From Xiphophorus maculatus (taxonomy: Eukaryota > Chordata > Actinopteri > Cyprinodontiformes > Poeciliidae): a DNA stretch of 64,000 nt. Positions 1 to 45,696 of this stretch are shown here, piece after piece; position 1 is the stretch's first letter, and the number at the start of each line of letters is the position of its first letter. The notes beneath the pieces were generated by a model. It did no database searches and was not told where the DNA came from. It saw nothing but the letters and a program-made list of their open reading frames with translations. Location of the stretch: contig NC_036457.1 of NCBI RefSeq assembly GCF_002775205.1, forward strand, positions 3,284,475 through 3,348,474, written 5' to 3'. Both the position numbers and the translations under genes were made by a program.

Positions 1-1801
1 CATAAGTTAATGCAGAATGTTGGAATACCAATGTTGCATTTTACTTTTGATTTAAAAACTTTAAAACAAACTCTAGTAACATACATACATAAACCAGGAT
101 GTTTGCACATCCTAAAAAAATCTTAAATTCCTGCATCCAAAATTAAATCCTTAAAATATCTTAAATCCATTAGAAAATATTCAAGTTGGCCTTAAATAAG
201 TTAATCAAAGGTCTTAGATGCTGCTTTGGCATGACTTTAATCTCGTGTACTTTATTTTTCTCGTGGGACTTTTCTGTCAGGCAAATGAATGAAAAATCTT
301 TTTTGCGTTCTTTGACTCGGCTACCTCAACTGCCTCGAGTTTTTTAGCTAGTTAGCTAGCTAGCTTTTTTGAGTCTTATCATTGGTGACTGTAAATCCTC
401 TGCTGTATGACGTTCGTCTTTGCCAGTGGTTCATATCTGTTGCCAACTCCTACGATGCTACTATATGAAAAATGCTATTTTCTTTTGTATATTTCTGTCA
501 TAATGCAGGTCTTAAATTCTGATCATAGTGGTCTTAAAAATGTCTTAAATTTGAGTTGGCAAAACCTGCAGAAACCTTGATATACACACAAACAGACATA
601 TTAAAAGGAAAAACCTTTAGAATACTAGGAAATAATTCAAATTTTTCTCCCTCATTGCAAAAAGTCAAAACATTTCCAGTCTTTATTTCTTGTACTTTTG
701 ATGATTCTGGTTCAGAGGAAATAGAAACCCAAAATTCTGTTCCTCAGAAAATCTTAATATTACATAAGTTGTTGTATAAATAAATATTATTTTAAACAGA
801 AATGTCAACCTTCTGAAAAGTATATACATTTTTGAACATACTTTTTTCGTCCACTCAACTTTCTATTCATAATCATGGACACGGCATTCTTTGAACAATC
901 AGCTTCTTTACTTTTTGTGTCCTCCCCTTCAGAAAACATTTGCACATATTTTTAATTAAGGTGTAACATCATGGGTTTCTAAGATCTAACTTTTGCAAAA
1001 TATTCACATTTTCTGACACCTCAACTTTGAGTTTTCATTATCTATGATCCAAAGTCTTCAAAATTATTAGAAATGGAGGCTTGAAATATTTTGCTCTATG
1101 TGATGAAAATAGGTAACATATGAGTCTCACTTTCTGAAATGGAGGACAAGATATTCACCTTACAATAACAAAATATGATAACTAAGAGAATTCATACTTA
1201 AGAACTACCAAAAAGTGCACACTCAGCAGTTTTTCATTCCAGCGTGAGCGCTGTGGTTGTAGGTTTGGTTCTGTTGGGACTGAATCTTAAAAGTGCAAAG
1301 ACACGCAGTAACTGAGTGGCTCCAGCTGTGAGATAATGTATTGAACTGGAGCACCAATTAACCTCTGATGTCATTCCATTTGCAGCAGTTCGATAAATCA
1401 GTCACTGTGAAATAAAGCCTGCAGCGTTCAGATGTTCTTCAGAAAACGTTTTACCTCAACGAGTTAGCTGGAAAGACCTCCACTTCTCCTTTCAACCATT
1501 CCCAATACTAAATACTTCCAGAACTTGTACAGGAAAACACAAAGTTAGCAAAACTTGAGAAATCCATGGGATTACATGTAAAAGGCTTTGCTAGCCAGCT
1601 ATAGCACCTAGTCAAAGATCTTCAAGTCAAACTTTCAATATTCTGATATTCAGATCAAAACTCACATAAACCTGCAGGTTTTTTTTTAATCTACCTCATT
1701 TAAACAGGTATTCTGCACAAAAGGCTTATAAACAAAAGGTTTATAAACACACCATGGCTGCACACATTGATTAATAACTGGAATATGTTTTGTTCCTGCA
1801 G
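1..1801. other. Non-coding, probable intron of the GALNT gene
   Basis: AT-rich sequence with no reading frame I can support. It precedes a clear 3' splice site (cag at 1799-1801), so it is most likely an intron of the GalNAc-transferase gene whose next coding exon starts at 1802. A short TAGC-repeat palindromic tract lies around 345-365. Nothing else stands out. Confidence 0.6.
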
Positions 1802-4800
1802 GAGTGGGTCTACACTCACGGGCAGCAGATCCGTCAGCAGCAGCACTGCCTGTCGCTGTCGACCACCTTCCCTGCATCGCAGGTCCTCATGCTGCCCTGC
1901 AACATGGCGGACGGGAAGCAGGTCTGAACACACACACACACACACACACACACCAAACACACATCCTCAGCTCAGACTGACAGGTGGTGTGTATCTGCAG
2001 CATCGTCTATCAAATGGCAGGTAAATAAATCAAAATGTTAATTAACCTGAAGATGAATTTGTTTAAAAAATGACTGATATTCACACATGTGCAGATGCTT
2101 GGCGCGTTTTTGAGCATGCAGCTTTGAAAACAGACACTCACACATGTCATTACCTGACCACTGGGCACCTTGATGGCGTCCCAGAAACCCCTGCAGCAGG
2201 GAACCACCTGACAACCAATAGATCACCTGAGGAAGAAGAAGAAGAGGCAAGGGAGAGGAGACACGAGAGGAAGGATGAGGAAGAGGAGGAGGGAGGATGG
2301 AGGAAAAAAAGAGATGAGGGATGGCAGAAGATTTTCTCATTAAAGCTCACCAACTGTTCTAATGTGGAAAATCTGCTCCGGTGTGTTTGTGTTCATCGCC
2401 TCCGGGTTCCTGCGATGTAAAACCAAACCGGAGGACGCATGGATCCAATCACACCCAGAAAACATGTTCATATTTCCACGTTCTGATATCTGACATGACG
2501 CACAATAAGATTCAGTTGTTATTTCATCTAAAAGTCATCCAGGCAGAAAATGAGAAACAAAATGAGAACGACGGTAAAAGGGCGTAAAAACGGAGAATCA
2601 AGAGAGGAGGTGAAAATATAAAACAAAGCAGTAAAAACAAAAGGGAAAGAAGAAAATACACATAAGTAATCACACTTATAGTCAAAGTATTCACACCCCA
2701 AAAGCAAGTTTCCCCTTTCCAGCTGCTAAACTAAAACCTGCAAACAAATCCAGAACTAAAATAAAACATATATTACTCAACTTTTTAATAATCCATACTT
2801 TTTCATATCATTGTGAGAGAGAAAATAATAATGTTCTACTATTTTATAGCCTTTCCAGTTCAGTATCACTGCAGTCAGCTCTGTCTGCCAGGATGAGATA
2901 TGAAACGTTCACCTGCATACAAATAAAGATATGATTGGCTGATCAAAACATCACATTTACTGTTATTTTAAGGAACAGAAAACTCAAAATCAAGCTCATT
3001 TTACACTCGAGCAAATGTCTTAACTTATTTTTAATAAAACTTTTTTATTGCATATATTATTTAATGGATTTTTGTTATTTTTCTGGGTCCACCCACTGTG
3101 TGTTAGAATGGCCTAGTCAAAGCCCAGACATACCTCTAACTGACAGTTCCACTGAAGCTGAGGATTTTCCAAAGAAAGGGCAAAAATAAAACCTACTAAA
3201 CTTTGAATCTCATGGTGATGATGAGAGATTGTTGTTATTTTTAAAGACAGTGAACGCATCGCTGTGGATAGAGAGGCTGGAAGTGTGAAAAATAAACAGC
3301 AAATTAGGAAAGCAGAGAATTCAGAGAATTCTGCTTTGAGATGTGAAGAACTTAAAATGATTGAGTTGAGTCTGAAAGTTTATTAGAGGTAAAGAAGACG
3401 AGAACAAACCTGCAAAACAAAATGTACAAGCGATAAAGACAAAAGATGTGGTGATGCAGATGGAAAAGAATTGAAAAAGAGAAAAGAGATGTTGAATTAT
3501 ACATTTGAAAAAGAAGATGCAGCTAGAAGAAATGAATAAAGCATGAAAATAATGAAACGAGGAAGGAACAAAAGGAGGATGGATGGATGTAAGGCAGAAA
3601 GAGAAGGAAGGGAAAAGAGGGAGGAAGGAATGAAATGAAGAAGGAAAGATGGAGAGTAAGAAATAAAGAAAAAAGGAAGGAAACAAGAAAGGAAGTAAGA
3701 CAGAGTAGGAAACGAGACTGAATGAAGGAAGGAGAGTAGGAAACAAAGAAGGACGTGGGGAAGGATGGACTGTAAGAAACAAGGAAGAAAAGTAGAAAAG
3801 GAGAAAAATATTAAACAATGATTATAGAAACAGTTGATAACAAAAGTTCATTTCTAAACATATTTTCTCTCCTATTTTGCTTGACTTTGTTTGAAAGCAG
3901 CCAGAAAGTTGAGGAGAGAAAGAATCACCTGGAAACGTTTCCAGCAGGCCGAGCGTTTTGGTTTCCGTGGTTCTGCTGGAATATTTCCAGATCATTTCAC
4001 TGCGTTAGCAAAACGAGAATCTACGCTGAACCCTGGAGACGGAGGATGTTAGGGAGACCGGGAAGCTGATGTTTGGGTCTGCATGCATGGAGACACACAG
4101 GCAGCTGCAGCACACCTGCAGGAGGCGCTGCTGCGGCATCACGGTTACACACAAACACACCATCTGGGTTTGTTTTAGCCGTTTCTGTGTGTCTACTGCA
4201 GCCGCGCCGCTGGAGCGCATCTCTGTCATGTAAATGAAACGTGTAAACCTTTGTGCTGACACACTGTGGGTGTGGGTGTGTGTGTGTGTGTGTGTGTGTC
4301 AGAAGGCAGGAAGCAGAGCGATGATGGCTAATTAGAACGACGATCCGGCAGAGAAGCAGCCCAGAGCTGACAGGTGGAGACTGAGGGAAGGAAAAAATGC
4401 AGAGAGAAGCAAAAAAAAACACTAAACACAGAGGGAGAGAAATAAAAAAACACACATAAAGACGGAACTAAACAGAGAAGAGAAAAAAACTGGATTCGTT
4501 TTAAAACTGAACTTCCAAAGTATTCTGCATAAAATATCACTTACATAAATGAAGCAGCAGCACTTAGTGTCACCTTCATCTTTAGTAAATTACATGTCTG
4601 CCTGTAAACACGTTGCTACGCTTAATGGTAGCACAGGTTGTGTCTAAAAATGTCTCATAAATAGAATGAAGTATGCAAAAGGGAAGAATATTTTAGCACA
4701 TTAATAAACCTTCAGCTAACAAATCACAACGGCTGTGGAAATGTCAGAAAGAGGCGAGCAGAAGTAGTTTCCACTCTTAACGCTACGGAGGAATCGCATG

Positions 4801-7800
4801 AAAGAGATACAAGACCTGACTTTATACATTATACAAAACTTAAACACAAACGTATACAAAAAAAAGATCTGGAATATTAATAATTTGTTCCAGACTTCTC
4901 AGAAACACTGTCTGATGTTTTTGCACCAAACAGCTTTGAGAAAAAAAATCTGTAAAAATGACAGAGTATTAGAGCCAGACTAACAGATTTTTTTAAATTG
5001 TAAGAAAAACATTATAAGAGAAACGAAAGTCTTGATATTAGCAGAAAACAGACAATTCATACAAATATGAGGAATAAAGTCATTTCAATGAGGAAAAAAA
5101 GCTTCTGACAGAAAAACCTTTTATCCGTTCAGTTAGATTAGAAGAGACTTTAGATTGGGTCAAAGGTCAGTGATCCTAAGTCCACATCTCGAAATCTTTC
5201 TTTTATAAATTTGTTATTTTACATATTTGTCAAAATTGTCACCATGTTGTGACGGTAAAATATGAGACATAATCTGTGAAAAGGTCGATCTCCTCTACTT
5301 CCTCCCTGAGCTGCTACTGCCGTCTGAAGAAATGCTCGGCTCCCGGCCAAAAGCAACCAATCAGAGCCAGGAGGCGGGTCTTAGCGCTGTTAATCAATCT
5401 CATGTACTCACTGCTAAATGTACAAAGGGCGGAGAAACGCTTACTATTCCAGGAAAATGTTCTAACCGTCGTCATCGGTGGCTATACTAACTAGCCTTAG
5501 CATGTTGTGATGAACTAGCTGTAGCGTAGCAGAGAGAAAGAGGGGGAGGAAGAGGGCAGCACCACATGGAGAGTGATTGACAGCACTAAGACTTGGCTCT
5601 GATTGGTTTGTTCTGGTTAGCACTAGAAAGTGGGGGAGCTCCATATTTTCACAGGTTATCATTTTACATACGGTTACAACATGGAGACAGTTTCAACAAA
5701 TATGTTAAAAAATATCTTTTGTAAAAGTTACCTACTGCAGCTGTAAGGAAAAAAAGCTTACATACTTCATTAAATGAAAATGTATAGCTTTGTTTTCTTT
5801 TAAGATGATTTTTAATATTTTATACTATAAATGCAATTTTGTTTAATCCTAGTTAGAGTAGCTGTGGTTTTAGCTAAGTGAAATCTTAATGAACAAATAT
5901 ATCAGAATCACTTTAAATTAAAACCTTCCTGCAGGATAGGAGTTAAAGAAAGCTTTTCGTTTTGAAATCATCCTAAATGTTGCTTTTATAGTCATAGACT
6001 GTCTCTGAAACAAAAAAGCTCAGGTAGGAGGGCTGAATAGGAAAGTGAGCAGAAGCCTCCCAGGAGGAAGTGTCAGGCCTGTGATGACCTGAGGATGATG
6101 AGATGCCCTCTCAGCTCTCAGCTCTCAGCCGTCGTCTGGAAAAGGAACAAAGTGGCCTGAACTTTACCAGAGCTGCTCTGACTTGCACAAAGACGGAGCA
6201 ACGCGACGTGTTCCTCTCATATTTGATGTCAGCTCTGGTGCAGCAGCCGGTAATGAGGTGAATACTAATTGATCTACTTTTAATTATCCCTCCCTCTTTT
6301 TTTTTCTTTCAATTACAACCCTCAGCGGCCCGTCGCTGCGCTGCGACGAGCGCCTCGTCCTGCCAGAGTCACAGCAGAGCTGCAGTTATTTTACTGGACA
6401 AAGCTTGCATGTGTGGGATTAGGACCCCACAATGCTGAACCGATCAGAACATGTTCATGCTCCACATCCTGACAAACTCTGAAACTCAAGTAAAGCATGG
6501 ATATGATTTATATTTTGTGCTTTAATATTCAAATGTAGACCTTTCCTTCATCAATTCTCCAGTCTGATTGGCTCTCAGTCTCCCAGTTGTAGAATAATGA
6601 TATAAATAATATAATATCCTCCATTATTACTATTTACACCTACTGACCTCAAAATCTAGCATTTAAATTTCATTCAGTATGTCTAATTAAGCTTCAAACG
6701 GAAAGAACAACTCATGTCATTTATTTTACGGTGATACTTTCTGTTTTCTCCCTCGTTAAGCAACATAAAATCATGATACTTTAGTGTAAAATGATTTTCC
6801 CCCCTAAGCATAAGTAATATTTCAAAAAAAAGATACACAAAAGCAGATTCACGCTGAGATAGAGGGTAGATTTAGAAGAGACCTCCATCTAGCGGCCATT
6901 AAGAGGAATTACAAATAGATATTTACCTAAATTCACCAAAACCTTTGAGATTATAAACTGAAAAATATACAAATAACAGTTCAACTTTAGCAAGACAGTT
7001 ACAGAATCAGGGTTGATTAATAGTGAAAGTAAAAGTTTTTCCACACAATATGAAGGGAAGTCAACAGATTGGGATTGAACAGCCGTAAGAATTTTCAAGA
7101 TAAGAGCTCTGAGCTTAATTTTTTTTTTTATCAATCAAATCAAAGTATTTTTTCCCCTCTATGCTGCCAAATTACATCATTGTGAAAACATTATTTGATT
7201 TCAAGAGGTTCTCAATACAGAGACAGCTAGTTATTATTGTTTTAAGTCTATTAATCAGTAGTTGTTAGCACCGTTACCACAGCAACCCAGCCTGGAGTTT
7301 GCCTGTTTCCCCCGTGAATGTGTAGATTATCTCCGGGTACTCCGGATTCCTCCCACAGTCCAAAACAAAATGGTTAGCTTAGATTGTGATAAACATGTGA
7401 TCAATATCAATGTATCAATGATACATTGATATTGTATCAATGTATCGTAGTACAATTTCACTGAACTACAACCTAGAGCTGCACAGCATTCTGGGGGATG
7501 TAGGCAGAGGAAATACTTTAGCCGCTCAGCCTTTCATGGCTGCTTGCTAAACAAGGTTGGTAGATTCAACTAACTCTTTGGTTACCTAGCAACGCACTCG
7601 CTCTTTGGTCTCCACCGTGTCTCATAACTACTTAAAGGTAAAAAGCGGCGTGGAGAGAAAACTGGATAAAAAGGGAAAGGTCACGTCATCAGTTTGGTTG
7701 TATTTCAGATATTTAAAACAACAAAAAAAAAGAATAATTATTTATAATGACTGATATGAAACCCTTATATCATGATAGATTTTTTATGATAATGTGCCAT

Positions 7801-12334: not shown

Positions 12335-15300
12335 ATGTTTCTTCACCGAGTGACCTCCTTCACTTCCTGCATTCGTCCCAGAGGGCATCCTGCTCTCCCC
12401 TGGGCCTCCTCCCACTACCAACCATTCGCCCCTCACCCTCCTCCATGGTGGTCAGCCCCCAGATTCCCACCCTGGCCTCCTCATTTTCCCCCACCATACC
12501 CACCTCCTTGTCCACTGTTCAGTGGTAACAGATTCCACTTTGCCAACACTGGTGGTCTACAGTCATTCCACACCTCTGTGGATGTCATGATGGAGCGTTC
12601 CAGCAGAGGACCTCCAACCAAACGATTGAAAAGTGGAGAGGACAGGAAGAGTGTTTGGGAAAATGTATCATCCAGGGATGGAGGAACGAGGGAAACGAGG
12701 GCCAAAGCCAGGGAGAGGGAGTCAAAGCAGGAGCATCATCACTGGGATTTCAGAAGAGACGGCGAACTTCCAGCGAACCACCAGTCCAGAATTGGAGAGA
12801 AACCAAAAACCGGAGCCGAGAGAGTTTGCAGCAGTGAAAGGACTAAATGTGAGAGAAAAAGCAGCAGTGACAGAACTAAAAACCAGCATTCACAAGCTGC
12901 AGGATCCAGGACTGAGCAGGAGAAACCCAACGTCTGGTACCGAGGCAGGCCTGCTGAGGAGCAGTGGAGCCTTCAGCAGAACCAAACCTGGTCGGCAGAA
13001 CCTGACGAGGTTGGCGGTGTCGATGCAGGGAGATGGGCGGGGCTTCAGTACCAGCCCTCCAGTTCTATTCAAGCAGACGGACGATTTCCACAACAACCTC
13101 CACACCCAGTTAAAAGTCAGTTTCTCTTTTAATAATGGTAAAATTAAAGCTCTCTAAATGTTCCTACGCAGTAAAAAGCAAAATGTACTGGGATTATTAA
13201 ACTCACAATTCAACGGAGCATTGGGGCCAACCTAAGAAAATAAAGTTATGAGAATAGTCATAAAATGATGAGAATGAAATCTTACAAGCATAAAATCATC
13301 ACATTATGACTTTATTCTCATATTGTTATGGCTTTATTCTTATACGACTTTATTCTCGGAACCATTTTGATTCTCATGCAACTTCTCTTAAAACTATAAG
13401 TTTATTCTGGTAAAACTGACTTTGTTTTAATTTTGTTTATCAGTATGGAGCAAAGCAATCCTCCCAATTTGCACATTTTTTGTTTATCAGATGAAATTAA
13501 ACCTCATTTTCTTCAGGTCTTCAGAGGTACTGGGAGACCTGCAGTACTGAAACCCAGCCACCAGAGGACAGCAGAGTCTTTGACTTCTCTGTGATGTCCT
13601 ACAACATCTTATCCCAGGATCTGCTGCAGGATAACGCCTACCTGTACCGACACTGTGACCCTGCTGTTCTGCCCTGGCCGTACCGGCTGCCCAACCTGCT
13701 GGCAGAGATCCAGCAGCACAACGCCGACGTGAGTGGACGACAAAAAGCCTGAAAATAATCATAAAATCTAAAAATATACTCACTGTTCCTCTTATCCATC
13801 ATTTCTGAAGTCACTGAGAGGTGGTTCTTACCAAGAAAATGTGTTTCTTTTCTGTATTTCTACTCCAGACGTTGTAGGAATCCCTTGTGAAAACTTTAAT
13901 TTCCTTCCAATTTTAAGAAGCTTTACTTTCTTCAATTTTAAAATCACTATAGATTAAAAAAAGAATAAATAATTCAGGCCCCAGCGAGATTTGAACTCGC
14001 GACCCCTGGTTTACAAGACCAGTGCTCTAACCACTGAGCTATAGGGCCTCACCTGAGCAGAGGTGTGGACCCGGTCTAGTTAAAGTTTCAGTGCTGTGGA
14101 CACACCTTCCTTCCACTGCAGCTGGTATGACTCCAGTCAGACCAGTTGTCTCTGTGCTCAGTGTGTCTGTAAATCTGTTCATTACTGGCTTTCAATGCGT
14201 CACTGGATTGTAGCATTGGATGTTTTTTTTCACAGATTAGTATGTTTCAGTCAGAAAACGTGTAGATAACTGCTTCACTTAGAAATAAGAGAGAAAAGTC
14301 AACAGAGTTTAACATTGAAAACAACATAAAATTGTGAGGGATGTTTTGGTTCCCAACCTGCAGTTCAAATTAATTCAAACTGTTCCACAAATTATTATTT
14401 TTTTATATAAATCAGGAGTCCTGTGGCTCTTTTTCCACAATGGCTCCTTAAGAAAATGTGCAGAATCAACTATTTTTTAAATATAGATATAACAATTTCA
14501 GATTTTAGCAGGATTTGTTTTTAGGGTTTTTGTACATAATAAATCCAGCATTGATTTTCCACAGCAGAATAACACTGTATGAATAATATCAATAATTTAC
14601 TTGTCAAAGTATACAGGGTGTAGAATGTCAAACTCATTTTTATTTCGATCATGAATGTCCTCAAAGGGCCGGTTGTGTCAGAAATTTATAAAACTAAAAA
14701 AAGTATTGTAGCTTTCTCTGCATTCAATGAGTACCTTTTCATAAATGATATTTAGCAGCCAGGTAACTTAAACAATCAAAAACTAATTTATTTTGGCTGG
14801 TAAAGTAATATTTAAACACACAACTACTAGTTGTCTGGAGGACAACAGAAAACGTCCTAGCCAAAATAGCCAAAAATATTGTTTGAAAAATGAAAAGATT
14901 GAATACTACATTTAAGATTCAAGCTTTTTTTTTCTTAAGTTTCAAATATTTTTGTTTTGTATTTTCGTCAGCTTTAGGAACAAACATTATGGCCCCAATT
15001 TAGCTCCAGAATACATGAAGATTATTATTGCAAAAGGAGATTAAAAACAAACCAAAAAACTCCCCTTTGTCCCTTAGGGGCCTCCATAGAATGCCACTGC
15101 TGTAACATCTGCAAATGTATCTTACATTTATTAGTAGTGAGATATACAGTTAGATTTAGCTAAATATTAAATCTCTTAACCCTGTTGATAAATTTTTGTT
15201 TGGCCATCGGTAAATAAGAAATGTTTGTCTCTGCAGGATGGAAAAATAAACTTATCAGGCCCCAGCGAGATTTGAACTCGCGACCCCTGGTTTACAAGAC

Positions 15301-18300
15301 CAGTGCTCTAACCACTGAGCTAAAGTTAGCTATAGGGCCTCACCTGTCACAGCTGGTGGTGATGACTCATTTACACCTGTACACCCAGTACAGGCACACC
15401 TTTATGTCGGTGTTTGCTGTGTGACGTGTCACCACTTTACTGTTGTGAACTTCAGTGGTTGAATTAGTTTTCAGTCAGATAAATCCAAAACGAAAGTAAA
15501 GTTTCCTCTTGATAGGACAGACAGGGTTTATTTTAGCTTCAAAAACGCAATGAAAAACGAGATGCATTAAAAGTTTATTTCATAGTATTTCATGGAAAAG
15601 GCCTTGAAGAAATCTCCATTTAATCTAGGATGTTCATATCTTATTTGTCAAGTTCAAATGCAGTTGTGCATTGACCGCAGTTTTCTGATCACTGGTTACT
15701 AACATTTAAAAAGCCTGACCTACCAATTCTGATTTGGGCCGATTCCAAATGTTTTTTGTCTGAAATGTCACTAAATATACCAAGAAAGTCACTTAGTTCA
15801 CAACAGTGTGACTGTTAATGTGCAGAAATGACCTGGTGGGCTGATCAAACCTCTCACAGCAGAGGAAAAGAGGACAGTGGCTGATTTTATTATATTTTTA
15901 TTTTATTTTATTTTTTTAAGACATTGCAGAGGTCGGTAAGAATGTGTCTAAGAATAAGAATCAGATGATGCTTCATACGTAAGTATCGGCTGATTACAAA
16001 ACTCCCAAAATTAAGGATATTGGTGCTCAAATGTTCTCCACTGTTAAATAAAGCTTTTCTAAGGTACCTTACATGCCCCTACAGGAGAAAATGCTTCTAT
16101 ATTTTGCTCTATTTACTGTAGAGCTACAGTTAATCAGAACAAACAACCCAAACAATTTTTTTTTACCCCTCCAGGGGTTTTTTTGTGGGCTCTAGTGTCC
16201 CTTATATGATAGTAGGCTGACAGGAAACAGGGAAGACATGCGGCAAATATCATCGGGTCCGGGAGTCGAACCCATGACGGCCACGTCGAGAACTCAAGGC
16301 CTCCAAATACGGGTCGCGCTAACCACTACGCCACCACGGCACGCCCCCCAAACAATTTTAAAGATTATACTTTCTATTCAAATACCCATAAAGCTAAAAA
16401 AGAAGTGTGGAAATTTGGAAAAGTTTGGAGTTTAGTAATTAAAAAAATCACCTGCTGGTCAAAATCTAAGAGGTAACAAAGTCAGTAATTTAGGTTTTAC
16501 CAGCCTGACCCATTTCCAACAGTTCTGTCAGGAGGAATGATCCAAAACCCCAACAAACTGTTGTGAGAATTTTCTGGAAAGAAACAAAAAACGTTCAGAA
16601 GATGTATGTAAACTTCTGACATCATTGGAGCAGCTAACAGAAATAATTCTTAGGTTAGGAATAAACAGATATGTTTAGGCTGATTTATTGTCAGTGAGAA
16701 ATATCTGCCATATTATCTTTCTTTAAAATGTAAAGCAATGTGTGTTATTTGTTGTCCAAAATCAAGAGACGGTTGGAATATTATTCATCAGGTGGGATTA
16801 TTTCCCTCAGATTTTATCCGGCTTATTTGTGTTTAAATCATGTTTAACCTCAGAAACTGATCCCAGTTGCTGTAGCACATCAGATCACAATTGTGTGAAC
16901 AATTTGTTGTTTTTAAAAATGTGTAAATAATTGGAAATAGAAAAATAATTCAGGCCCCAGCGAGATTTGAACTCGCGACCCCTGGTTTACAAGACCAGTG
17001 CTCTAACCACTGAGCTAAAGTTGGGGAACAATAGTCTGCTTGGGGGGGGGAAGAAAGGAAGGAAGGGGGAAGAAAGGGAGGGGAGAAGAAAGGGGAAGAG
17101 TGAGGCCGATCCCAGAGTCGCGAGTTCGATCCTACCAGTCGCCATACTATGTTTTAGTGAAAAGATTTCCCACAATTAATGTTTAAGTGTTATGAAGTAA
17201 CGGCTGTTTTTTTGTATCTTGAAAACATTTTAAATGCTTTTTTGTACAGATAGTGTAGTACTGTAAACTAAAACCCAACACTTGTCATAAAAGGCTTTCT
17301 TTTTAAAACTTTGAATTGCTTAATTAATTTTGCTTTTTTATTCTGATATATTCAAATTAATGTGTTAAATTATACTGTATACTATATACTTGATGTATAT
17401 TTTAATGTCCTTAATCATACCCAGTGCTTATTTTCATTTTTCCCACAAAACAGTGACTGAAACTAAAATTGCAAGTGTCTTTCCTAAAGTACTTTGAGTG
17501 AAGTGAATGATATCTTTTTTCTAGTGTATGCTTAAATTACCAATAATTCAGAATTTGAAGCAGCTAATATTTACTCACAAAAGACCATAGACCTTATCGG
17601 TTTAAAAGAACCAAATATTTATTCAACAATTAAGACAGTGAATTAAACATTTTTAGTTAGTCCCAAAACATTGTAGCATTTGGATGCAACACATTTCCAT
17701 TGAAGTCTCCCATTTCTTTTTCTTAACCAAGAAATTTGTGGTTTGCTGAAGGACTTAAATCCTTTTACTGTATGGTTTGTTGAATTACTTTGTGTACACA
17801 ATGACAATAAGAATAAATATCTGTATCATTAACCCAAAACAAAATAAACACACTATGAACTAAATAAAACTTATATACAGTGAAGTTATTTAAAATAAAG
17901 AAAATGTTTATTTTTTCTTTTTAATTTGTTCCAGCCACTGCTCTTTAGTGAGACTTTCATTAGAGGGACAGTAAATTTGCCCTCTATATTGGCTGTGTCC
18001 TGTTTCAGCTATTCTAAACTGCCCGCATTTTTTGCATGTGTTGTGCAAAACTTTGCGAGTCAATTTTCGAGGTTCTCTACCAGGTTGAGCAGGGGCTGCA
18101 CCTGGAGACTGTGCCTGCTCCTCTTTTCTTTGGACTACGATGGATATTGCACAGTCGGACAAAGATGGTCTCCACCAAGCGGCAGCAGTCTGGCCATTGG
18201 GCAGATGGGGCTGGAGTGGTTAGAGCATGCCTCTTTACACTCTCAACCCCAGGAGTAAATTCTTGCCTCTTCTTGGGGGACCGAAACCTCCCAGTGTTCA

Positions 18301-21300
18301 ATCTTTCTTGATGTCTTGCAGCAAATACCGTTCTCTGTTTATCAAACTCCAGCAGGTTCTGCCACAGAGCAACAATGCAGCTCACCTAAACAGGAAAATA
18401 AAACAATTTTACATTAGGACAACAATATGCAAGTGAGGTGAAAGGCGTGTGCATGTCTGCAGCAAGCAACAATGCATGTTACTGACCTCCTGGTTGGTCA
18501 GCACCAGTGAGGTTTTGCTCCTTAGCTCCACCAGATACTCAGCCAAGCTGTCAACTTTGTCCAGGCCTGGTACACCGGCCTCATCTAAACCCTGAGAAAA
18601 CATAAATAATGTTGAAGTTATTTGAAGTTTTATTAAATTTTTCTTCAATTCTACAGCTTACTATGAATGCCCACCTCTGACATAGGCTCAGCAATGCCAG
18701 GCTGGGTGGAGGCAGCAGACAGGGTGGAGGGAGCTGGCTGGGTGGAGGGAGCTGGCTGGGTGGAGGGAGCTGGCTGGGTGGAGGGAGCAGACAGAGTGGA
18801 GGCAGCAGACAGGGTGGAGGCAGCAGGCTGGGTGGAGGCAGCTGACTGCCTAACGAGAAATAACGAGAAATGTACAATCATGTGAAGTATATACTTTATA
18901 AATCACTACATCAAAATAAGCACAAGAAAATGTTTTGTTCAAAAACTATTATAGTTTGTTGCCAAGACAGAATCAATAATATAAAGTATTGAGCAAACAA
19001 ACAAGAACATTTACCCTTGACAAAGATGGAGGGGACCTCAGGAAACAGCGGGTGGCTGTTGCTGTATCTCCAGAATTAGATTGTGAACCCACAGACTGTG
19101 GGGTCAAAGAAGGAGGTGCAGAAGGAGGCTGCAGTGCAGGCTACCAAAACAAAGATATTTTAAGTATAAAAGTCACCATTCACCAGAATTGCAAGAGACA
19201 AGACATAGCTTCAAATTTGACTAAGAAGTGATTGTTATTAGATATTATTTTAAACCAGCTTACTTTAACAGTGTGAAAGCCACAGTCACAAGTGACAGAC
19301 GCTCCAAAAAGGGTGGTCTGTCCCCGAACTTGCATGGGGCATTTTTCTATCTGAAACAGTGTAACATAATCTTATTAATGACAGCTACTCAAGTCTGTCC
19401 TTTTTTATAAACATATCTACACACACAAGTGAATGAAACAGTGACTTCACTTTACCTTCTGATAGATATCATGCCATTTCTTCTGCCTTGGGGCTGGTCT
19501 ATTCCCTGCATTGGAAGGCCAAACCCCAGTGCTGGCAAATGCCTTAAGCCTTGCCATCCACTCCCCATCCCCCATACCTTTGTGGCTCTTTGGCTTGGTG
19601 CTCATCTGAAGATAACATTGGGAATTAGCAGAATCAAATTCCATAAACTAATGATGCACTTTGTGCACAACTAACAATGGGTATGACATAAAAGCATTTA
19701 AAAGTAAAATCAAAGCCATAGTTTTCTGTGCTAATTATGATGAGGTAAAAAAAAAAAACTATAACCCTCGATCGATCGATCGAGGTTGGTCTATATATAG
19801 GTTGATATCTATGTATGCATTTACATTTTAACTTAAAATGTTACTACTATATTATAAAATAAAATGTGTCCTTACTCTTGCACTCAGAACATGACATCAT
19901 TATGTCGCCCTTTTATTTAACCCACAATATATTATTTTAGCTGATGTACAATTATAAATACGAAATCTGTTTGAACGACAACAGACAATAAACAATATTA
20001 ATGGGTACTCACAGCAAGATCGTTTAGGTCGAGAGATCAATGATGTGATGACGAATCCTTCTTCAACGAAGCTAGGCTACTGACATCTGACTTTCAGAAT
20101 CTTCCAACGGTTTTTATTTTTAAAAATAAAATTCGAAATTTGTTTTGTTTGTGGTGGTGGGGGGCGTGAGGGCGTCTGAGAGAGGGAGGGCTCACGGTGA
20201 TTGGCCGATTTCCATTGTGAGCGCGGACATTGATAGGTTCGCATGTCGCCACGGTGATTGGCCGATTTCCATTGTGAGCGCGGACATTGATAGGCTCGCA
20301 TGTCGCCACGGTGATTGGCCGATTTCCATTGTGAGCGCGGACATTGATAGGCTCGGTCCATTATGAGGCGGTACGACATTGGCTAAACCGTTCAATGTGA
20401 GAATGGAGAGGGGCAAGCGCCATTGGAGGAGAAACACCGACTAACGTGAGCGAAGTAGCGCCATAGGGCCTCACCTGAGCAGAGGTGTGAACCCGGTCTA
20501 GTTAAAGTTTAGTTCTGTGGTCACACCTTCCACTATGATTCCATAAATATCGCTGGATGTTTGATTTTAAATGTCATGCCTGAGCAGCGCCTCTCCTGGT
20601 TTGGTACCAGACAGACCAGTTGGTTCTGTTGGCAGCTTCTTCCTTTTCTCTGTTGGACATCAGAGGTTTAAATAAAACTCAGAAACAGGAAGCTGAATAC
20701 TTAGTGCAGCTGAAAGAGTGAAAATGTTGAAATAAATGTTGTTTTCTTTCTGTCCCAGATTCTGTGTCTTCAGGAGGTCCAGGAGGATCATTATGAGAAC
20801 CAGATCAAACCGGCTCTACAGGCGTTAGGTACCAACTCCTGACTGTCTTCCAACTAGTTCTAAAAAATACAGAATTTATTACAGTTTTATAGAATATATA
20901 AAGTATAATATGGTGGAAAAAACATCAAAGCTTCCAGATTTTATCCTTTTATCTTCTATTGATAAAACTAAAGATGAATGTATTATTATTATTATAATAG
21001 ATCTAGGACCATAACTCAATATTTCTGTAGCTGTAGAGTTTTTTTATTTACTTTTCTGAGAAAATTAGACAACAGATAATGTAATAGAGGATTCTCTCTT
21101 TCGATCTTAAAGTGCTGAGAGGAGAATAAAGGAAATAAAGTTTTGAAAAATTTACATTTTTTTCATTCTCTCATTGAGAAGATAAAAGTACTATTTATAT
21201 TTATTTATAGGTAAATAGCTATTTTAATTTGTCATAACTTGACTCTTTATTCACTGATATTTTTTGGTTTTTGAGTTACTGAGAGAAACAGGAAACTAAA

Positions 21301-23357
21301 TGTTTCAACAATAAAAGGGGCATTTAGAGGCTGAAGTATCCAGATCATCTCAGATTAGGATTAATCTGGACCTGCTCTTCTACTGGGTATGAAAAATACT
21401 GAAACAAAAATAAAAACATCACCTCTTACAACAAACTGACAGAGATGTTTAAGAAGTTTTTTAACAGTCGGAGTTTGAATATTTCAGTAACTATATAAGC
21501 TTAAAGAGAAAGTGCAGTGTCAGAAAGTGGTGATAAAATGTAAAGAACGTGTTTTAGTAAAACCTAACGTGTGTGTGTGTGTGTGTGTGTGTGCGTGTGT
21601 TGGTGTGTGTTGAAGGGTACCAGTGTGAATATAAGAAGCGGACAGGGAAGAAACCAGACGGTTGCGCCATCACCTTTAAATCCTCCCGCTTCTCGCTCGT
21701 CTCCTCAACGCCGGTGGAGTTCTATCGCCATGGCGACGCCCTCCTGAATCGGGACAACGTGGGCATGGTGGTCGTGCTGCAGCCAAACGCCGGCGCCGCC
21801 CGGTCCGACGCGTCCTGCTCCATCTGTGTGGCCAACACTCACCTGCTCTACAACCCTCGCCGTGGCGACATCAAGCTGGCTCAGCTGGCCATCCTATTGG
21901 CCGAGATCGGCCGGCTGTCCCGCCTCCCTGACGGCTCCACCAACCCAGTGATCCTCTGTGGGGACTTTAACTCGGCGCCGTGGAGCCCACTGTACCACTT
22001 CCTGATCACAGGCTCTCTGAAGTACAAAGGGATGCAGATTAACATGGTGAGACGAGACTAAACGATTAATCATGATTAATCAATTATTGACATCATCGTC
22101 ATCTAAATTAGTTATCAAATAATTATTAACTTCAGAATAAGAAAAAATCTGCAGAATGTCTATTTCTTCCAATTAATTAATTATTCACTAGAATAATCAA
22201 TTACTAAAATAATTGTTAGTTGCAGCTTTACATGGTTTTATTTCTCTAACACATGTAATCATAATAATAAATCTTGTGAATCATTCTGTGTGAAATGAAA
22301 GTCCTGACTGAGTTCTCATGTTGTGAAGGTGTCGGGTCAGGAAATGAGTCCCAGAGGTCACCGTTTCCTCACCCCTCCCATCTGGTCCCCCGGACTGGGA
22401 ATCAACCAGTGCTGCCAGTATGAGAGCAAACCAACAGAGGAGCCGCGTCCCAGCAGCCCTGCAGGTGAAACCCGATTCCTCTCCATTCAGACTGGACCAG
22501 CTCACTCAGTCTGAACCTGGACCGGTTTCAGCTCATTTAATGTGAACTTGAACCGGTTTCAGCTCATTTAATGTGAACCTGGACCGGTTTCAGCTCATTT
22601 AATGTGAACTTGAACCGGTTTCAGCTCATTTAATGTGAACCTGAACCGGTTTCAGCTCATTTAATGTGAACCTGAACCGGTTTCAGCTCATTTAATGTGA
22701 ACCTGAACCGGTTTCAGCTCATTTAATGTGAACCTGAACCGGTTTCAGCTCAGCTCTGCTTTCTGCCTCAGCTGTGGAAGGAGGAATCTCTAACCTGACG
22801 GTTGAAGATCCGGCCCCTGGAGTCTCAGCTGATGTTACCAGGTAACCAGATGATCAGGCTTTAAGCCAATCAGAGCAGTGTGAGGCCAGGTGTGTGTCCT
22901 GAACGATTCTGACCTCTGACCTCTGATCATAGGTCAGAGCCGAACTGCTCCAGATACAGGATCAAACATGACCTGAAGCTGCAGTCGTCTTACGGGCACC
23001 GCCTGCTGCCGGACGGCCGCCCTGAGGTCACCACCAGCCATTCACGCACATCCCTGACCGTGGACTACATCCTGTACAGCTCAGGTACACACACACCCAC
23101 ACACCCACACACACACTTACACTTCTTGTCCTGTCATTATTAGTAACAGTTTCCTGTTCTCTCTCGGCTCTCCTTTATTAGATATAAATGCAACGCCTTT
23201 ACTTCCTGGTGGGCGGGGCCTCCAGCTGCTGAGCAGGCTGTCATTGGTTGGCCAATCAGAGCTGGAGGAAATCCACAGACTTCCCAACTGGCACCACTCA
23301 TCGGACCATCTTCCTCTCCTGGCCAGCTTCCGCCTTGGTCCAGACAGTTTCACATGA
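12335..23357 (+). CDS. angel2: ANGEL2, CCR4/EEP-family RNA phosphatase-nuclease
   Basis: Coding exons: 12328-13115 (ATG at 12335), 13517-13728, 20759-20828, 21616-22046, 22329-22464, 22772-22841, 22933-23084, 23182-23357 (TGA). All junctions keep phase, giving about 675 aa. An extra first exon, 11406-11437 (32 nt, MYTQQEHGEF), also fits the phase at 12328 and would add 13 residues. The EEP core is complete: VMSYNILSQD, the metal-binding Glu in LCLQEVQEDH, NTHLLYNPRRGD, CGDFNS, TVDYILYS and SSDHLPLL. Human ANGEL2 is reported to remove 2',3'-cyclic phosphates from RNA ends. ANGEL2 rather than ANGEL1 is supported by VSGQEMSPRGHRFL, PEVTTSHSR and the VASH2 neighbour. The N-terminal ~260 residues (Pro/His-rich, then charged) are longer than in the 544-residue human protein. 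One intron is 7 kb and contains tRNA copies and mobile DNA. Confidence 0.93.
13976..14048 (-). tRNA. tRNA-Thr (anticodon TGT)
   Basis: 73-nt cloverleaf on the minus strand: acceptor stem GGCCCTA pairs with the 3' end, D arm GCTCAGTGGTTAGAGC, anticodon loop CTTGTAA (TGT, reads ACA, Thr), T arm with GTTCAAATC. A and B boxes are intact. A run of seven T follows within 15 bases on the minus strand as Pol III terminator. Identical in sequence to the plus-strand copy at 35356. It lies antisense inside an ANGEL2 intron. Confidence 0.93.
14041..14125. repeat. Duplicated tRNA 5' flank, copy 1
   Basis: The start of the tRNA and its upstream flank (GGCCTCACCTGAGCAGAGGT and onward) recur with few changes at 20463-20545. 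This shows that tRNA plus flank was duplicated within the intron. Confidence 0.8.
15257..15339 (-). pseudogene. tRNA-Thr (TGT) with 10-base insertion after nucleotide 8
   Basis: All 73 tRNA bases are present and match the intact copies, but ten extra bases (15322-15331) sit between the acceptor strand (GGCCCTAT) and the D arm (AGCTC). In tRNA sense the junction reads AGCT-AACTTT-AGCT, so AGCT is doubled around AACTTT. The insertion widens the A box to B box spacing only from the 5' side, but it disrupts the position 8-9 connector and should prevent a normal tRNA fold. A T-run terminator follows. The same AACTTT is found at the edge of the insert in the next copy (17017). Confidence 0.85.
16160..16346 (-). 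mobile_element. tRNA-derived SINE, copy 1
   Basis: In minus orientation the head is tRNA-like: GTGGTGGCGTAGTGGTTAGC (A-box region) and GGGTTCGACTCCC (B box), followed by a body ending in an Alu-free tail that reads CCCCTGGAGGGGT then T/A-rich sequence. It is flanked by a 13-base target duplication, CCCAAACAATTTT, at 16147-16159 and 16347-16359. A second copy of the same family with its own target duplication is at 60223-60418. I do not assign a family name. Confidence 0.85.
16952..17016 (-). pseudogene. tRNA-Thr (TGT) fragment, 5' end split off
   Basis: Nucleotides 9-73 of the tRNA-Thr(TGT) are present and match the intact copy; the first eight (GGCCCTAT) are missing and replaced by AAAGTTGGGG (plus strand). 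The missing eight bases with the usual upstream flank occur 3.4 kb away at 20463, so the gene has been split by an insertion. Confidence 0.88.
17908..19605 (-). CDS. Six-exon gene of unknown function carried by the insert
   Basis: Minus-strand exons, all phase 0: 19605-19456 (ATG directly at the acceptor), 19350-19264, 19140-19015, 18845-18675, 18591-18487, 18385-17908. Residues 1-50 are basic (MSTKPKSHKG, RQKKWHDIYQK). Exon 2 has two Cys pairs (EKCPMQV, CDCGFH). Exons 3-4 are Pro/Ser/Ala-rich, with repeats of A-P-S-T-Q-P. Exon 5 is acidic and Leu-rich. Exon 6 encodes VSCIVALWQNL, RSPKKRQEF and QWPDCCRLVETIF, then hits TAG at 18079-18077. The overlapping frame continues to 17908 with a CKKC-GHSQY-YC zinc-ribbon-like end, so a one-base frameshift (or an unseen splice) separates the halves. 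It resembles predicted teleost proteins of unknown function that I recall only loosely. I give no function. A possible 5' UTR exon with donor GTGAGT lies near 20012. Confidence 0.6.
18690..18845 (-). repeat. Coding minisatellite (18-bp units)
   Basis: Within exon 4 of the insert gene, 18-base units reading GCTCCCTCCACCCAGCCA and close variants repeat about eight times and encode A-(A/P)-S-T-(Q/L)-(P/S). The frame is kept through all units. Confidence 0.8.
20193..20357 (-). promoter_or_regulatory. 57-bp repeat x3 with CCAAT boxes, probable promoter of the insert gene
   Basis: Three near-identical 57-base units start at 20193, 20250 and 20307. On the minus strand each carries GGCCAAT, a second CAATG word and GTCCGCGCTCACAATGG. 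They sit about 600 bases upstream of the insert gene's ATG, in a CpG-richer patch. The repeats are seen directly; promoter use is inferred from the CCAAT boxes and position. Confidence 0.6.
20463..20545 (-). repeat. 5' fragment of split tRNA-Thr plus duplicated flank
   Basis: 20463-20470 are the first eight tRNA bases (GGCCCTAT in minus sense), followed by the same upstream flank found beside the intact copy at 14041-14125. It is the partner of the fragment at 16952-17016. Confidence 0.85.
21569..21610. repeat. GT microsatellite running up to a 3' splice site
   Basis: (GT)12 at 21569-21592, then interrupted GT words, ending in TTGAAG at 21610-21615, which is the acceptor of the ANGEL2 exon at 21616. 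The usual pyrimidine tract is missing. Confidence 0.85.
22521..22753. repeat. 31-bp minisatellite in an ANGEL2 intron
   Basis: Seven full units of 31 bases (starting ACCGGTTTCAGCTCATTTAA) begin at 22521, 22552, 22583, 22614, 22645, 22676 and 22707, and a partial eighth at 22738. They differ only at C/T and G/A positions near the unit end. The array fills most of a 307-base intron. Confidence 0.92.

Positions 23358-29052: not shown

Positions 29053-45696
<16,644 letters not shown>

Follow-up and report, generated by a model that had tools for sequence, protein, structure and literature searches.

A probable non-autonomous Dada-superfamily transposon with unequal flanking hexamers in a tRNA-Thr gene of Xiphophorus maculatus

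Dada transposons and the family at this locus

Transposons of the Dada superfamily insert at fixed sites in multicopy small RNA genes and are flanked by target site duplications of 6–7 bp, which are sometimes replaced (PMC3706591, PMC8869645). They are related to the P element and hAT transposons, with DDE transposases carrying a C/DxxH motif (PMC3706591), and have no terminal inverted repeats, while sub-terminal ones were reported for Dada-U6 and U1 (PMC3706591, PMC8869645). Dada-tN and Dada-tR insert at nt 8–13 of tRNAs, are flanked by a 6-bp hexamer, lack terminal inverted repeats, use TGGCGC targets in tRNA-Asn, Arg and Met, and contain a spliced gene coding for a DxxH motif and a C-terminal CCHC finger, all of which they have in common with the family analyzed here (PMC8869645). 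In Dada-tA and Dada-tY, a foreign hexamer was found on one or both sides, as is the case here (Kojima and Jurka 2013; Kojima 2022), and a travelling old flank was already speculated for Dada-tA, with the mechanism left open (Kojima 2022, PMC8869645). Insertions outside tRNAs are represented by one copy of Dada-tV_OL inside a repeat (a non-autonomous hAT), for which the present family also offers a counterpart (Kojima 2022, PMC8869645).

We analyzed a stretch of 64,000 nucleotides from Xiphophorus maculatus (hereafter the window), in which a tRNA-Thr(TGT) gene is split by an insertion of 3.4 kb. With a probability of roughly 0.93, this insertion would be a non-autonomous DNA transposon of the Dada superfamily that arrived very recently, the homology being judged by motif spacing only. 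As the sister copies encode a Dada-type transposase and target tRNAs, the element belongs to a new family within the known Dada superfamily (Kojima and Jurka 2013, Kojima 2022) and is not a new kind of element; the preliminary description expected an unusual eukaryotic element should it target tRNA genes, and unusual it is, but elements of this type are on record as the Dada superfamily (PMC3706591, PMC8869645). In contrast to Dada-tN and Dada-tR, near-identical copies of this family are also found in tRNA-Thr, Lys, Ser and a tRNA-derived repeat, and most of the copies found are a 3.4–3.5 kb deletion form; the likeness to these two lineages is one of features. Targets in tRNA-Thr and SINEs are unnamed in the consulted text of PMC3706591 and PMC8869645, and literature linking Dada transposons to tRNA-Thr was not found by title.

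The split tRNA-Thr gene and its insert

The split of the tRNA-Thr(TGT) gene by a 3.4 kb insertion is real and the sequence matches what had been described, as deleting 17017–20462 gives a tRNA 5′ half like that of the intact tRNA-Thr(TGT) genes at 13975–14049 (minus strand) and 35355–35429 (plus strand). The borders, previously set at 17017–20462 and between tRNA positions 8 and 9, were sharpened by comparison with other copies in the same genome: the element proper extends over 3440 bp at 17018–20457 (minus strand; ends from comparison with 13 other two-ended copies) and interrupts the tRNA at nt 8–13, with its coding strand being that of the tRNA. The junction order is GGCCCTA-TGGCGC-[element]-TAGCTC-AGTGG. 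To the right, the target hexamer TAGCTC in its native form (tRNA nt 8–13; 17012–17017, minus strand, from copy comparison), also present in three intact tRNA-Thr genes (13975, 35355, and L048), is adjoined by tRNA-Thr(TGT) nt 14–73, severed from their own 5′ end (16952–17011, minus strand, from sequence and cmscan, which recovered a truncated tRNA at 16960–17017, model positions 8–63). To the left, the non-native TGGCGC (20458–20463, minus strand, from copy comparison) replaces the expected second TAGCTC and is bordered by tRNA-Thr nt 1–7, GGCCCTA (20464–20470, minus strand, from sequence comparison), and then by the native 5′ flank (93% match between 20460–20531 and 14038–14110). A target-type hexamer thus flanks both sides, one copy (TGGCGC) being non-native, and it is because this 6-bp copy differs that no target duplication had been recognized before.

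An origin of the split by rearrangement of the locus or by faulty assembly, without transposition, would find some footing in the three tRNA-Thr copies that lie within ~3 kb when the insert is disregarded, but elements with the same ends are located in the A boxes of tRNAs elsewhere, on other contigs, which excludes a purely local rearrangement and makes this origin of the split extremely improbable.

Alignment with longer copies shows the window copy to be a non-autonomous derivative that has lost internal parts. Two internal deletions account for the short copies in comparison with the 8.2-kb copy L034, to which the window copy is 99.4% (1604 bp), 98.7% (744 bp), and 99.5% (1083 bp) identical in three common parts, while it differs from L039 by 0 substitutions and one 1-bp indel. 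The ends are common with the long copies and the catalytic part (DDE, DxxH) is absent. Of the spliced gene previously noticed in the insert, only remnants are therefore present, the complete transposase gene being found in longer sister copies only. On the minus strand, these remnants comprise exon 1 with an ATG start (19456–19605; open frame, AG before and GT after by eye, also in L034), exon 2 (19264–19350; same piece in L034), exon 3 (19016–19140), exon 4 (18675–18849), which contains an 18-bp repeat and adjoins the large internal deletion, exon 5 (18487–18591), and the start of the last exon (18077–18385), with a stop soon past the second internal deletion. C-terminal coding remains with the CCHC finger C-x2-C-x9-H-x8-C are located at 17911–18077 (minus strand), in a frame that differs from the preceding exon unless a further splice is used. 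Pfam searches with fragments of the gene in the window copy gave nothing above the cut-off. Near the 5′ end of the element, a 57-bp repeat containing ATTGG boxes, present in approximately three copies (20193–20355, minus strand), is probably the promoter-like array reported earlier (putative promoter role); a bacterial promoter scan gave one match, equal to shuffles, and is uninformative for a fish promoter. The ends are indeed not inverted, as no shared inverted words of 7–12 bp (or any of ≥ 7 bp) were found in the outer 250 bp of both ends, and sub-terminal inverted repeats like those of Dada-U6 and U1 were likewise absent at ≥ 7 bp in the window copy. P element and hAT transposons have terminal inverted repeats, leave footprints and are not known to target tRNA genes.

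Long copies, transposase, and target genes

No known transposase had been recognized in the insert, a view that the rest of the family corrects: four long copies (8131–8438 bp, within the 4.7–11 kb given for complete Dada elements with introns) encode a Dada-type transposase, with AG/GT exon borders by eye. Pfam DUF6729 was found in two exons of L034 (E 6.6e-52 and 1e-30); a literature search on this domain found no papers. For Dada-U6_DR, the printed motif values are D 567, D 635, E 176 residues past the second D, and a CCCC spacing of x4-x34-x2 (PMC3706591). In L034, where the D and E residues were picked by eye, the spacing between the first and second D is 68, as in Dada-U6_DR (567 to 635 = 68), the DxxH motif is DIWH, 27 residues past the second D, and the E candidates are located 168 and 192 (SLESF, the one taken) residues past the second D, compared with 176 in Dada-U6_DR. 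The C-terminal finger of L034 (C-x2-C-x9-H-x8-C) has exactly the spacing printed for Dada, while the four N-terminal cysteines within its DUF6729 match are spaced x2-x31-x2 vs. the printed x4-x34-x2. AlphaFold2, run on exon 7 of L034 as a single sequence without alignment, gave a mean pLDDT of 39, too poor a model to be of use.

The element occupies at least 17 places in this genome (further right-end copies may be missed), 14 of them with both ends. Its left end recurs at 14 other places, a count from which the window's own tRNA flank and repeat fragments at a single place were excluded, and in 13 of these 14 a recognisable right end is also present; the ends are the same in the other copies, and the unit is not a product of chance. 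The right flank is readable in 11 of the 14 two-ended copies (it is masked in L032, L039, and L041), the orientation is always the same, and nine of the 11 adjoin a tRNA there according to cmscan. The 11 targets comprise tRNA-Asn, Lys, Arg, Met (settled from one intact gene in L018), Ser, and Thr, together with a tRNA-derived SINE-like repeat (L043) and an unassigned tRNA-like stretch (L033), these last two being judged by eye, and the insertion site in the several tRNA kinds is nt 8–13 (A box) in one orientation. The suggestion that the element targets tRNA genes is thereby borne out, with many copies sharing their ends and flanks that are mostly tRNA. Six tRNA gene kinds and a SINE-like repeat in one family indicate a looser targeting than naming after one tRNA suggests, a point to consider wherever Dada is to serve as a targeted vector. 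Unlike in Dada-tV_OL, the repeat is here tRNA-derived and was entered at the tRNA-equivalent site. The 8.4-kb copy L036 has flanks from two arrays, tRNA-Asn and tRNA-Lys (contig C15), and one idea is that it may have carried the whole tRNA-Asn array into the tRNA-Lys array; beyond its far end, the Asn array continues into sequence that does not match the Lys stretch L065.

Unequal hexamers and a candidate excision footprint

Equal hexamers are present on both sides of L034, L037, L038, L042, and L045 (as well as of L036, with its flanks from two arrays), and the junction table of the 14 two-ended copies contains one-sided replacements in the window copy, L043, and L044. L044 has TAGCTC on the left and TGGCGC on the right, L043 has TGGCTC on the left and TGGCGC on the right, and the window copy shows the opposite side replaced (TGGCGC left, TAGCTC right). 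Among nine uninserted relatives of the L043 target that were read, seven have TGGCTC and none has TGGCGC. The proposed coupling, in which an old flank travels with the element, rests on these three clean events, L033, L036, and L040 being left out as their two flanks are not demonstrably from one gene. L033, L041, L043, and L044 (contigs C24, C5, C3, and C13) have 0 substitutions or indels over 3498 bp; as two of these identical copies, L043 and L044, nevertheless combine TGGCGC at one end with the hexamer of their target at the other, like the window copy, the swap happened at insertion. Compared with Dada-tA and Dada-tY, it is the identical copies in different targets that link the swap to insertion itself and make it testable.

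Mutation or conversion between tRNA genes after insertion could in principle produce such differences, since tRNA arrays homogenise and the Asn arrays in this genome are closely alike. Against this, TGGCGC stands where the target has TAGCTC (L044) or TGGCTC (L043) despite 0 differences in 3498 bp, it lies on the right in L043 and L044 but on the left in the window copy, and the SINE-like target shows the swap too, so we consider a post-insertion origin highly improbable.

For a swap at insertion, the following steps may be envisaged. The long copies would supply the transposase that cuts the window element, or its parent, from a donor, presumably a tRNA of the TGGCGC type (the sister copy L039 adjoins a tRNA-Asn 5′ end with TGGCGC), and the element would be joined into tRNA-Thr with a 6-bp staggered cut. 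Less certainly, the excised element might retain its old 6-nt flank on the non-joined strand, which would fill the 6-nt gap opposite the new target and give a mismatched hexamer, and repair or replication would then resolve the mismatch, leaving one flank with the donor hexamer and the opposite flank with that of the target. That the old 6-nt flank travels with the element and ends mismatched at the new site is a tentative proposal, to which we give somewhat less than even odds. If true, the element would bring its own A-box half to each tRNA, and a single family could enter many tRNA kinds as well as tRNA-derived SINEs. In the Tn916-type conjugative transposons, which are bacterial and use a tyrosine recombinase, donor bases (the coupling sequence) travel and come to lie next to the element on one side after insertion; these transposons are unrelated to the window element but work like the proposed flank transfer. 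A demonstration that a DDE transposase works with a coupling sequence like that of Tn916 would, to our knowledge, be the first.

Alternatively, TGGCGC may be part of the element's own ends, with the hexamer acting as a short homology that leaves one target copy and one element copy. Exactly one side is TGGCGC in all three clean events, and TGGCGC also occurs within the left end, ~35 bases in, in most copies (TGACGC in L045). However, L045 (in tRNA-Ser) has GTGGCC on both sides, L032 has GGGAGC on the left and GGGA followed by masked sequence on the right, and replacements of both hexamers are described besides those of a single one (Kojima 2022, PMC8869645), which leaves this origin of TGGCGC rather unlikely.

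Within another tRNA-Thr, 1.7 kb from the window insertion, AACTT (15323–15327, minus strand) is located between TAGCT (15328–15332) and TAGCTC (15317–15322) and is, from its sequence context, a possible Dada excision footprint, of interest for the question whether Dada moves by cut-and-paste; literature on Dada excision was not found by title. Cutting within the element, five bases in, would account for it better than cutting outside, which speaks against a flank carried along from the donor. Genome-wide, the pattern TAGCTN{0,8}AACTTTRGCKCA had 10 matches, compared with none in the reversed control, one of them in a tRNA (the window's own), while TGGCGN{0,8}AACTTTRGCKCA and AACTTTAGCTCAGTNGG, the latter being unable to match tRNA-Thr, gave one match each, outside tRNAs by eye; footprints of other shapes (AACTTTAGCTCAGTGGTTAG, left end kept) may be missed by these patterns. 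A chance slippage product in the tRNA-Thr at 15317–15339 would agree with AGCTAACTTTAGCT being nearly palindromic, with this being the sole such tRNA found (1/10 and 0/1 pattern matches in tRNA), and with the 10 matches against 0 in the reversed control, by which such strings occur outside tRNAs. We nevertheless regard slippage as rather unlikely, as AACTT lies close to a Dada insertion and equals the element's right terminus, exactly at the border of the target hexamer.

The split tRNA-Thr gene

Two intact tRNA-Thr(TGT) genes (13975-14049, minus strand; 35355-35429, plus strand) and two damaged ones (15265-15322 and 16960-17017, cmscan coordinates) were found in the window. The last is split by the insert, which puts nucleotides 1-7 at 20464-20470, a distance of 3.4 kb. 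With its two flanks joined the sequence is that of the intact gene, therefore the split reported in the preliminary description is real. Exact borders, set by comparison with other copies, place the element at 17018-20457 (3440 bp), and the order on the tRNA strand is GGCCCTA, TGGCGC, element, TAGCTC, AGTGG. The same description had seen no target duplication; a hexamer (tRNA nucleotides 8-13) does border the element on both sides, and was overlooked because its left form is TGGCGC, not TAGCTC. Beside the insert, exon 21561-22058 encodes an endonuclease/exonuclease/phosphatase domain, in what is presumably an Angel homologue, and a 31-bp unit forms a tandem array at 22467-22776, near the host gene exons.

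Insertion at tRNA nucleotides 8-13 is already published for Dada, a superfamily of DNA transposons targeting small RNA genes (PMC3706591, PMC8869645). We file the insert's family as a new Dada family, with the novelty placed in its targets and in the evidence on when the hexamer swap occurs.

Copies and targets

Each end region of the insert was used as a query against its own genome (704 Mb), with match counts as lower bounds: at least 21 for 16800-17100, some of them tRNA only, and at least 23 for the left end, comprising 15 places with an element end, repeat pieces at one such place and the window's own tRNA flank. Of the 17 stretches fetched, 16 are element places outside the window (L032-L047) and one is an intact tRNA-Thr gene without the element (L048), giving at least 17 element places including the window. 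Two ends were recognised in 14 copies (window, L032, L033, L034, L036-L045); L035 is cut off by the end of its contig, only the right end of L047 was found, and L046 has a diverged left end and no recognised right end. L033, L041, L043 and L044, on contigs C24, C5, C3 and C13, show zero differences over 3498 bp, and a single indel sets L040 apart from this group. Between the window copy and L039 there is one 1-bp indel and no substitution; between the window copy and the L041 group there are two of each. These small distances speak for recent activity.

The right flank was readable in 11 of the 14 two-ended copies (in L032, L039 and L041 all or part of it is masked), and cmscan placed a tRNA at the right junction in nine (window, L034, L036, L037, L038, L040, L042, L044, L045). 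L035 likewise has a tRNA there, and tRNA direction relative to the element is constant across all these copies. The targets are tRNA-Thr (window), Asn (L034, L035, L037, L038, by eye), Lys (L036, anticodon TTT; L044, CTT; ARAGORN), Ser (L045, ARAGORN), Met (L042, by eye) and Arg-TCT (L040, by eye). L043 is inserted in a dispersed repeat whose head is tRNA-like (of 656 candidates, 39 further places were scored) and which by eye reads as a tRNA-derived SINE. In L033 the right flank is tRNA-like by eye without a cmscan call, and the left flank shows no recognisable tRNA; no target was assigned to L032. Published targets include Ala, Arg, Asn, Asp, Gly, Leu, Lys, Met, Phe, Ser, Tyr and Val in fish and Ile, Leu, Gly and Tyr in Perkinsus; word searches of the main texts found neither Thr nor a SINE as a Dada target (PMC3706591, PMC8869645).

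ARAGORN also called complete tRNA-Lys genes across the junction (L044, 3956-4028; L036, 507-579), where the element end CCCAACT takes the place of the missing acceptor strand and looks by eye able to base-pair with most of the 3' strand of tRNA-Lys. The long copy L036 (with L060 and L065 at G000:C15:21.35-21.37 Mb) lies between a tRNA-Lys stretch on its right and, on its left, a tandem tRNA-Asn array (14 Asn-pattern matches, 21365924 to 21371682); such joins could spread tRNA arrays. L040 and L041 point in opposite directions on C5, with about 1.7 kb between them, and have flanks that look exchanged, a pattern that an inversion between them would give.

Transposase and element structure

The long copies are L034 (8202 bp), L036 (8438 bp), L038 (8173 bp) and L042 (8131 bp). 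Pfam DUF6729 matches two L034 exons (6.6e-52 and 1e-30). With catalytic residues picked by eye, the first and second D are 68 apart, as are D567 and D635 of Dada-U6_DR, whereas the E taken lies 192 past the second D (another at 168) as against 176 (PMC3706591). DIWH follows the second D by 27 residues; the C-terminal finger, C-x2-C-x9-H-x8-C, matches the printed spacing exactly, and the N-terminal CCCC does not. All four of the L034 exons compared keep an open frame in L036 and L042, at 99-100% identity; L038 has three of them unchanged, and its last one aligns as two separate pieces. Positions of about 1604-5850 and 6593-7120 of L034, and with them the catalytic part, are missing from the short copies compared, and the deletions of L045 follow a different pattern. 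No shared inverted words of ≥7 were found in the outer 250 bp of the ends.

Across this genome DUF6729 was matched 22 times, against zero matches in 14 control genomes. Beyond the long copies, L045 and L046, matches lie on C23, C21, C11, C9, C24 and C2, perhaps in other Dada families. Four cover almost the full domain in one open frame (G000:C23:28031456, 28055030 and 29071833; C21:20631421) and may represent further Dada families or genes co-opted from one; two of them flank L045 on either side. Inside the window copy, a stretch resembling the 3' half of a tRNA, with a B-box-like sequence, was seen by eye at 17108-17132, about 90 bases from the right end and on the strand opposite the split tRNA.

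The swapped hexamer

Hexamers beside near-identical elements are nevertheless unlike the target's own form. The window has TGGCGC left and TAGCTC right, with TAGCTC in three intact tRNA-Thr genes; L044 (Lys-CTT) has TAGCTC left and TGGCGC right, with TAGCTC in the three intact Lys-TTT genes of L065; L043 has TGGCTC left and TGGCGC right, its uninserted relatives carrying TGGCTC in 7 of 9 read and TGGCGC in 0 of 9. TGGCGC thus stands on exactly one side, left or right, in all three clean events. Later mutation is not a likely source, since one or two of six bases changed, always to TGGCGC, while no difference arose in 3498 bases; from these sequences we conclude that the changes came with insertion. 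L039, sister of the window copy, is flanked on its left by tRNA-Asn-like sequence that carries TGGCGC, the donor type that a swap would need.

Outside this count stand L036 (TGGCGC on the Lys side, but flanks from two arrays), L040 (left TGGCTC, which may be a mixed form, and flanks that seem exchanged) and L033 (TGGCGC left, TGGCGG right, with no native form for comparison). L034, L037, L038 and L042 lie in TGGCGC-type tRNAs and are uninformative; in L039 and L041 the right side is masked. L045, with GTGGCC on both sides, and L032, where GGGAGC lies outside the left end and the right side reads GGGA up to the mask, count against a swap.

Hexamer replacement on one or both sides has been described for Dada with its mechanism left open (PMC3706591, PMC8869645), and Kojima 2022 speculated that the original flank was transposed along with Dada-tA (PMC8869645). 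Beyond the site, orientation, hexamer, motifs and deletion observed here, movement would be by cut-and-paste, with transposase supplied in trans. More tentatively, a six-base donor flank might be carried on the non-joined strand, sealed into the new gap and resolved on each side into the donor's or the target's form. At 15317-15339, a tRNA-Thr has the sequence GGCCCTA TAGCT AACTT TAGCTC AGTGG, its five extra bases AACTT being the element's right terminus; it was the only tRNA-borne match to the two patterns able to match it. It looks like an excision footprint, would be in keeping with a cut within the element and is not easily reconciled with a carried flank. In L032 (minus strand, 540-870; about 1679.0-1679.4 kb on G000:C6), eight left ends of about 36 bases follow one another in tandem, six with GGGAGC and two with TGGCGC in front, and look like slippage between hexamers or repeated end joining.
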